A stretch of 64,000 nt of DNA from Pedobacter puniceum (GTDB lineage Bacteria > Bacteroidota > Bacteroidia > Sphingobacteriales > Sphingobacteriaceae), in contig NZ_WKJI01000007.1 of the NCBI RefSeq assembly GCF_009674685.1, positions 1 through 64,000 on the forward strand, written 5' to 3'. The position numbers and the translations under genes were made by a program. Every line of letters starts with the position of its first letter. Position 1 is the first letter of the stretch. Positions 39,037 through 39,274 of the stretch are shown one piece after another. A model generated the notes under the pieces. That model was not told where the DNA came from. It saw only the letters and a list, made by a program, of their open reading frames with translations, and did not search any database.

Positions 39037-39053
39037 GTGCTAAGAATTAGCAC
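39037..39053 (-). promoter_or_regulatory. Hairpin overlapping the leader ORF stop
   Basis: Perfect 7-bp inverted repeat GTGCTAA / TTAGCAC with a TTC loop (minus strand). The last Cys codon and the TAA stop of the leader ORF lie in its left arm, so a ribosome paused or ending there would melt it. A second small hairpin, TTACG / CGTAA, follows within 20 nt. No strong T-run follows either one. Confidence 0.65.
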
Positions 39054-39163
39054 ATACAGCAACGCATGCTACAACTTGCATAGGCAAATTGTAAAACGCA
39101 AAGATTTTGACTTCCTTTTATTAGGAAATCAGCTTTTAGTAAGATGTGTTTTAAATTTTTCAT
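39047..39163 (-). CDS. Putative Cys/Met leader peptide ORF, 38 codons
   Basis: A short frame between the SAM riboswitch and the sulfhydrylase gene, with ATG at 39163 and stop at 39047. The peptide begins [17 protein letters not shown] and ends [10 protein letters not shown]. Of its last eight residues four are Cys or Met in a row or near it (Met33, Cys35, Cys36, Met37, Cys38), with another Cys at 31 and one at 22. The start codon is 10 nt after the 3' strand of aptamer helix P1 and the stop is in a hairpin. This is the layout of a transcription or translation attenuator that would sense charged tRNA-Cys or tRNA-Met. Whether it is translated is not shown; an inner ATG (codon 33) could give just MRCCMC. 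Confidence 0.5.
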
Positions 39164-39173
39164 GTCTTTAAAT

Positions 39174-39274
39174 ATTTATATTTCCCTTTCGGGGCAGGAT
39201 TTGGCACCTTTCACAATCTTTGTGAGGTTGCCAGTGGGTCTTAGAGCCTGTTCTCTTACCACTTCTTTATAAAT
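39174..39274 (-). ncRNA. SAM-I (S-box type) riboswitch
   Basis: Aptamer upstream of the methionine genes. On the minus strand, P1 is AUUUAUA (39274-39268) paired exactly with UAUAAAU (39180-39174). Next come AAGAAGUGG and a kink-turn-like AAGAG / CUCUAAGA pair, closing with CCCACU. The hallmark GGCAACC precedes P3, UCACAA-AGA-UUGUGA, and then GGUGCCAAAUCCUGCC and a CCC-CGAAA-GGG helix (P4). These are the conserved SAM-I core words. Ligand-bound P1 would tie up sequence just ahead of the leader ORF start, and lie 198 nt ahead of the sulfhydrylase gene. SAM excess should lower expression (family knowledge). Confidence 0.9.

Follow-up and report, generated by a model that had tools for sequence, protein, structure and literature searches.

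A SAM-I riboswitch joined to a candidate Cys/Met-responsive leader before methionine-biosynthesis genes in Bacteroidota

The window, that is, the whole stretch of 64,000 nucleotides of Pedobacter puniceum DNA that was analysed, carries the genes metY and metX behind a compound leader, and all features described below lie on its minus strand. The metY gene (37671–38975), for O-acetylhomoserine sulfhydrylase, is matched by TIGR01326 at 688 bits, with a cut-off of 495. The metX gene (36586–37641), for homoserine O-acetyltransferase, is matched by NF001209 at 333 bits against a cut-off of 331; this score was obtained on 36586–37638, and the start codon was placed by eye. Upstream, at 39173–39275, a SAM-I riboswitch aptamer matches RF00162 in sequence and structure over the full model (1–108), with 78 bits against the family gathering score of 44.4. 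The aptamer alignment puts the A/U-rich 3' strand of helix P1 at 39173–39180, about 10 to 17 nucleotides ahead of the ATG of a short open reading frame (ORF) and in its likely initiation region. This leader ORF of 38 codons (39047–39163) was recognized by reading the frame, from relatives of its peptide and from class-wide statistics. Its last ten codons (39050–39079), four of them for Cys, are proposed as a gauge of charged Cys- and Met-tRNA on the basis of tail composition over 152 leaders. A 7-bp hairpin covers the last Cys codon and the stop (39037–39053), and the sequence reading gives a spacer of 71 nt from the leader stop to metY (38976–39046). Upstream of the aptamer, a promoter-like pair was seen by eye at 39328–39360, namely TTTG (39360–39357) and, after 21 nt, TATATTTG (39335–39328), judged against the Bacteroidota promoter consensus. 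Further upstream on the same strand lies a cystathionine gamma-synthase-like gene (39395–40522), whose best match of 412 bits is below the model cut-off of 513.

An earlier sequence-only reading of this DNA had placed the leader ORF directly after a SAM-I aptamer and before metY, and the model scores for the aptamer and the enzyme bear this out. The ATG does lie close behind P1; the spacing had been given as 10 nt, and the count from the last aptamer base (39173) to the ATG (39163) is 9 nt. The one other SAM-I riboswitch of the genome precedes a metH-like gene and is without such a leader. A search of 60 genomes returned relatives of the window peptide in three congeners, with 61–68% identity over all 38 residues. 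No family model of the NCBIfam and Pfam libraries matches the peptide, and Rfam contains no model of the leader; besides SAM, no Rfam element was found in five loci at E values up to 0.5.

SAM-I riboswitches are present in all 18 genomes of the genus, with 34 matches, 30 of which were retrieved and compared. The sequence of the 3' P1 strand divides them into two kinds, with ATAAA(T/A) in the first and other sequence in the second, and the ORF plays no part in this division. A Cys tail was recorded where an ORF has at least two Cys among its last ten codons. The 15 genus riboswitches of the first kind lie before metY (12), metX (2) or a homoserine dehydrogenase gene (1), and every one of them is followed by an ORF with a Cys tail. 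The 15 of the second kind all lie before metH, and none has the tail; a single ORF occurs among them, and it is without Cys. The link of the leader to methionine-gene operons, proposed from the window, holds at all 15 first-kind loci retrieved from the genus, and none of these has lost the ORF or its tail.

The comparison was extended to 74 first-kind RF00162 matches (duplicates removed), of which 72 come from the genus and family searches and belong to the one family Sphingobacteriaceae, and two come from the class search. An ORF is present in 72 of the 74 and a Cys tail in 58. Dinucleotide shuffles (n = 3700) produced an ORF in 20.9% of cases and a Cys tail in 0.73%. Among second-kind riboswitches the tail occurs in 2 of 131, both before metY. 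From the class-wide RF00162 search, the loci read were 29 new ones and 20 chosen matches, the latter mostly from genomes with several matches. Nearly all of these are of the second kind, to which every one of the 26 class loci used without such choice belongs. Three loci at contig edges (L081, L083 and L119) were dropped, and identical leaders were collapsed. Four loci from outside Bacteroidota (L255, L284, L298 and L320) were excluded from most counts, with L284 kept in the residue and codon tallies. Because all 15 retrieved genus riboswitches of the first kind and none of the 15 of the second carry the tail, and because its frequency in the larger set compares with 0.7% in shuffles, the ORF and its tail are not a product of chance. 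The comparison thus supports a leader in which a conserved ORF, with the Cys/Met tail as the kept part, is tied to SAM-I riboswitches before methionine-biosynthesis genes.

The body of the peptide is not conserved, and its end is. The leaders are 14–51 codons long, and their ends range from CMS to CCCCCCCC, the latter directly before the stop. Over 152 leaders, a set that was chosen for having an ORF and includes a Bacillus leader, Cys accounts for 33% and Met for 14% of the last ten codons, compared with 2.5% and 1.5% in the middle. In 151 leaders, 508 Cys codons stand in the ORF frame against 194 and 18 in the other two. Both Cys codons are in use (TGT 333, TGC 257), and the aligned tails of Mucilaginibacter differ by whole codons. 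The proposed check on synonymous change came out in favour of the ORF, with 115 tail changes at third codon positions against 64 and 55 at the others between 64 related pairs, although this signal is modest since the pairs overlap and are related.

A scan of the genome collection by the aptamer pattern gave at least 120 stretches, of which 80 were given as loci and 76 belong to Bacteroidota. Among the matches listed, 72 of these 76 have the ORF and 54 the Cys tail. Directly before the stop, the named tails read CICMCCCCC in Mucilaginibacter, CMCCCIQ in Pedobacter, ICCCCCCCC in Cesiribacter, TCCCCCC in Botryobacter, NCCCC in Nafulsella, SCCCCCE in Chryseolinea and RMRMCCCCQG in Hymenobacter, and up to eight consecutive Cys are found in relatives. 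Genomes assembled from metagenomes (MAGs) add SMCCCCCCFC (labelled Saprospiraceae) and AMMCCCCCC (labelled Chitinophagales). The orders include Cytophagales (Cesiribacter and Hymenobacter), Sphingobacteriales (Pedobacter segetis) and Saprospirales (Saprospiraceae); the remaining assignments follow the titles of the records. The Cys tail is missing in 10 of 13 leaders of named Sphingobacterium, where 9 of the 13 end in RMR, and Algoriphagus mostly has a tail-less ORF or no ORF; other failures include one Pedobacter, whose locus ends within the ORF, and a few MAGs. In an alignment of 19 Sphingobacterium-type leaders, the block CGAATGYGNTAG and a hairpin arm TCGTC are kept across the stop, the peptide ends in RMR and the Cys run is mostly gone; another stalling motif, or a site acting at the RNA level, may be present there. 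At locus L171 (G035), the ATG of metY itself lies 10 nt past P1 of a SAM-I aptamer, with no leader between; the same genome carries the aptamer-free poly-Cys ORF of L374.

Poly-Cys leaders were also sought blind to the aptamer, with codons for Met-Cys-Cys-Cys-Cys as the pattern, in 247 genomes of the class. There were 115 matches; 110 were examined, and the remaining five are SAM-leader loci already in the set. Outside open frames of at least 90 codons lie 18 matches, 15 of them with an in-frame upstream ATG, and 13 of these 15 ORFs precede identified sulfur or methionine genes (the gene at L493 was named through similarity to L492, and those at L413, L414 and L419 by reading). A SAM-I aptamer precedes six of the 15. 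In one of the six, metY comes directly after the leader; in four, an ORF of about 75 codons separates the leader from the gene, which is metY in two cases and metX in two; the sixth (L433) is followed by an OsmC-like gene, matched at 76 bits with a cut-off of 95. The intervening ORF separates the SAM-linked poly-Cys leader from metY or metX at L412, L413, L418 and L419, and its product at L412 has no NCBIfam match at 1e-10.

The other nine have no aptamer. Four of them, at L430, L477 and L500 (two in a row), precede sulfite/nitrite-reductase-like genes, L480 precedes metY and L473 a homoserine dehydrogenase gene. When 11 aptamer-free leaders were tested, five showed an intrinsic terminator (−17 to −22 kcal/mol) downstream of the Cys codons, which by sequence is the anatomy of a classical attenuator. 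They are found at L430 (1500), L477 (1000), L480 (1000) and L500 (863 and 1000; all 0-based, gene orientation); L500 has two leader-plus-terminator units in tandem, and L480 shows an apparent second unit upstream by eye. At L492 and L493 (1000 in each, 0-based, gene orientation), leaders reading MCCCCCCC before the stop lie directly before cysH, for PAPS/APS reductase (the model was run on L492), and neither an aptamer nor an intrinsic terminator was found in them at the threshold used. L496 (1000, 0-based) has an aptamer-free leader ending RMRMCCCCA, and its downstream gene has no NCBIfam match at 1e-10. A second pattern, four Cys codons plus a stop, was abandoned as too unspecific, as most of 30 loci inspected lie in or opposite long ORFs. 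It did yield L374 (529), with an ORF ending HRMCCCC upstream of a SusC/RagA-like gene, and L389 (1500), with one ending CPCCCC upstream of a TonB-dependent-receptor-like gene (both 0-based, gene orientation). No Rfam match was found at L430, L374 and L389 at E values up to 0.1, in a run of nine loci of which the other six are SAM, or at seven further loci.

Shine-Dalgarno sequences are rarely used by the ribosomes of Bacteroidota. A study on Flavobacterium johnsoniae found that initiation is promoted by adenine at −3, −6, −12 and −13, and that there is little pairing from −20 to +20, and less still in well-translated genes (PMC6847099). Before the leader ATG, adenine peaks are found at −14 to −12 (70–75%, part of which is produced by the ATAAA selection criterion itself), at −6/−5 (62–70%) and at −3 (64%), over a background of 31%. 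These peaks match the published determinants (PMC6847099). In 145 of 151 leaders the aptamer includes position −13, and for this reason a closed P1 should hinder the leader start. Since P1 overlaps the likely initiation region, SAM probably gates translation of the leader, and the suggestion that the aptamer controls the start of the ORF is plausible on these grounds.

The stop-codon hairpin fared differently. In the window, GTGCTAA-TTC-TTAGCAC forms a perfect 7-bp stem that holds the last Cys codon and the stop. When the local 56 nt were shuffled 2000 times by mononucleotide, 1.25% of the results had seven or more perfect pairs, and 9.9% of 1000 shuffles of a 164-nt stretch did; the stretch between the tail and metY (115 nt) folds more stably than all 200 dinucleotide shuffles (z −2.54). 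Among 15 congeneric leaders, a perfect 7-bp stem across the stop is confined to the species of the window; another congener has a 7-bp hairpin at a different place, and congeners have shorter or different hairpins. The hairpin was dismissed as a conserved device: of the three parts put forward for comparison, the ORF and the Cys tail are kept in the 15 congeneric loci, and this stem is not. Immediately downstream of the stop, the hairpins of other genera are different ones, such as CACGT/ACGTG in the consensus fold of Mucilaginibacter and TCGTC/GACGA, by alignment reading, in Sphingobacterium. Pedobacter has one invariant hairpin near the stop (CTTCC/GGAAG), and the next, helix 2, covaries, with 26 cells changed on both sides, a number reached in 0 of 500 shuffles. 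In this genus the Cys codons can also pair among themselves, with seven predicted pairs and no double changes. The Pedobacter tail may be under constraint at the RNA level.

Intrinsic termination was also considered as the output of SAM-linked leaders and ruled out at the strict threshold used, with a terminator-like structure in 1 of 151. The same threshold finds terminators in 5 of 11 aptamer-free leaders and catches only 28 of 131 leaders of the second kind. Since a terminator occurs in only one of the 151, the SAM-linked leader is not classed as a classical attenuator, and an output based on Rho or on translation would fit. Counted over the 70 nt that lead up to the gene, C outnumbers G by two to one or more in 77 of 128 leaders; the figures for comparison are 10 of 56 for metH leaders and 7 of 49 for upstream regions within the window itself. 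By analogy, such a C-rich, G-poor spacer fits Rho, which is suggestive only.

The window leader shows one mark of a ribosome-mediated attenuation leader, in that the short ORF ahead of the gene, downstream of the promoter, is rich in codons for an amino acid of the pathway at its end. The blind search brought up more such leaders, as well as aptamer-free ones before sulfur genes; on this comparative basis, the most fitting reading of the locus is that a SAM-I riboswitch has been joined to an attenuation leader responsive to Cys and Met. As a SAM switch directly precedes a Cys/Met-ended ORF in many Bacteroidota, the methionine-synthesis genes are probably under two serial sensors, of which the first responds to SAM and the second to how well sulfur amino acids are supplied. 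The main reading, to which we assign a probability of roughly 0.6, is a two-stage regulatory leader with a SAM gate followed by a Cys/Met-tRNA gauge. From its anatomy, plentiful SAM would let the aptamer close P1, and the leader ORF would stay untranslated because the 3' strand of P1 carries the A-rich region, favoured by Bacteroidota ribosomes, about 12–13 nt upstream of the start codon. From comparative genomics, low SAM would allow translation, and the Cys/Met codons at the end would gauge charged Cys- and Met-tRNA. A ribosome delayed just before the stop would disturb the hairpin at or after it, and metY and metX would be expressed; a leader that is untranslated, or translated without delay, would lead to repression. 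The output would probably lie in the G-poor spacer, through Rho-dependent termination or through an effect on translation, rather than in an intrinsic terminator, and the logic would be that low SAM AND low charged Cys/Met-tRNA mean ON. The architecture and the idea of the two-input device proposed earlier are retained, without the perfect stop hairpin as its conserved part.

A simpler explanation is a plain SAM-I riboswitch, in which translation of the leader alone couples SAM to metY and the tail is a relic of an old attenuator or makes the ribosome slower. The overlap of P1 with the initiation region would serve this equally, and in Sphingobacterium and Algoriphagus the aptamer has been retained, mostly with an ORF that lacks the Cys run, so the arrangement seems workable there without the tail. 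However, peptides of several orders that are otherwise unrelated share the Cys/Met tail, which also recurs without aptamers before sulfur genes, and this explanation is regarded as rather unlikely. Still less probable is that the tail is an RNA element, a hairpin or a protein site, that merely resembles Cys codons. The hairpins kept at or after the stop within genera, the covarying helix 2 and the mutually pairing Cys codons of Pedobacter, and the nucleotide block across the stop in Sphingobacterium all speak for it, but the hairpins vary between genera and what these have in common is Cys in frame; moreover, the use of both Cys codons and the whole-codon variation of Mucilaginibacter tails are against it. 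The ORF might also encode a functional Cys-rich small protein, for example one that binds metals or thiols, co-regulated with metY by SAM. The ORF is conserved and probably translated, and Cys-rich C-termini could bind metals; yet the body of the peptide is not conserved, no family model matches, its C-terminal end and its length vary, and the ORF stays beside the aptamer in the leader, which makes a protein of this type slightly more improbable again.

Both halves of the two-stage leader are of known kinds, and their serial fusion is undescribed as far as searches of the open-access papers in PMC show, in which no description of a SAM riboswitch joined to a Cys/Met leader was found. Mycobacterial poly-Cys leaders are said to be cysteine-responsive, reportedly in work of Canestrari from 2020. 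SAM-I (S-box) riboswitches, RF00162, share with the window a complete aptamer before methionine genes. SAM-I riboswitches whose P1 holds the ribosome binding site on its 3' side have been described (PMC2258182); here the start codon is that of the Cys/Met-tailed leader ORF and not that of the enzyme. In the cys operons of Actinobacteria, a short ORF has a Cys run near its stop, no terminator is obvious, and Rho has been suggested (PMC1262725). The Cys run near the stop and the position before sulfur-assimilation genes are shared with our leaders, whereas the actinobacterial ones have no riboswitch and belong to another phylum and other genes. Similarly, uORFC-8-2 before cysS of Rhodobacterales has tandem Cys codons and was read as ribosome-mediated attenuation (PMC8632094), but with an intrinsic terminator, no riboswitch, and another gene and phylum. 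It is by analogy with these Cys leaders that the tail is taken as a gauge of charged tRNA (PMC1262725, PMC8632094).

Other systems combine a structured RNA with a small ORF or a second input. In mgtA/mgtL and corA/corL of enterobacteria, an ion-responsive fold is combined with an upstream ORF whose elongation matters, followed by Rho termination, which was shown for corA (PMC11552253). There the signal is magnesium, the codons are for proline and acidic residues, and the upstream ORF lies inside the sensor fold, while the window has a separate classical metabolite aptamer ahead of it. In the cyanobacterial glnA and Downstream-peptide motifs, a riboswitch-like RNA is followed by a short conserved ORF (PMC2864571); the peptide is the regulated gene itself, and the available part of that source mentions no tail with an amino-acid run. 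Bacillus clausii metE has SAM-I and AdoCbl riboswitches in tandem, and so two inputs for one methionine gene in one leader (PMC2258182). There, two aptamers control transcription termination independently of each other, whereas the second input at the window would be the ribosome. Within the same phylum, leader-peptide attenuation has been inferred before amino-acid operons of Flavobacterium psychrophilum (PMC9723704), with neither a cysteine leader nor a SAM link mentioned in the part available.

Riboswitches and leader-peptide attenuators are usually seen as alternatives, and here they stand in series in one leader, in several orders. With both sensors in one leader, the level of the end product and that of charged tRNA would therefore be integrated in cis, by RNA and the ribosome only. 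The odds lean slightly towards a more general view, in which this is a widespread two-input RNA device of Bacteroidota, with a riboswitch that would control translation of a starvation-sensing leader rather than of the enzyme (AND logic), and which would have arisen by joining a movable poly-Cys module, also standing alone before sulfur-assimilation genes, to SAM-I. The leaders offer a large natural set for tests of AND logic, and dozens of unannotated leader ORFs are directly testable. They hint at how SAM-I riboswitches of metY and metX without intrinsic terminators may act, and they point to a network of cysteine-responsive leaders in Bacteroidota.
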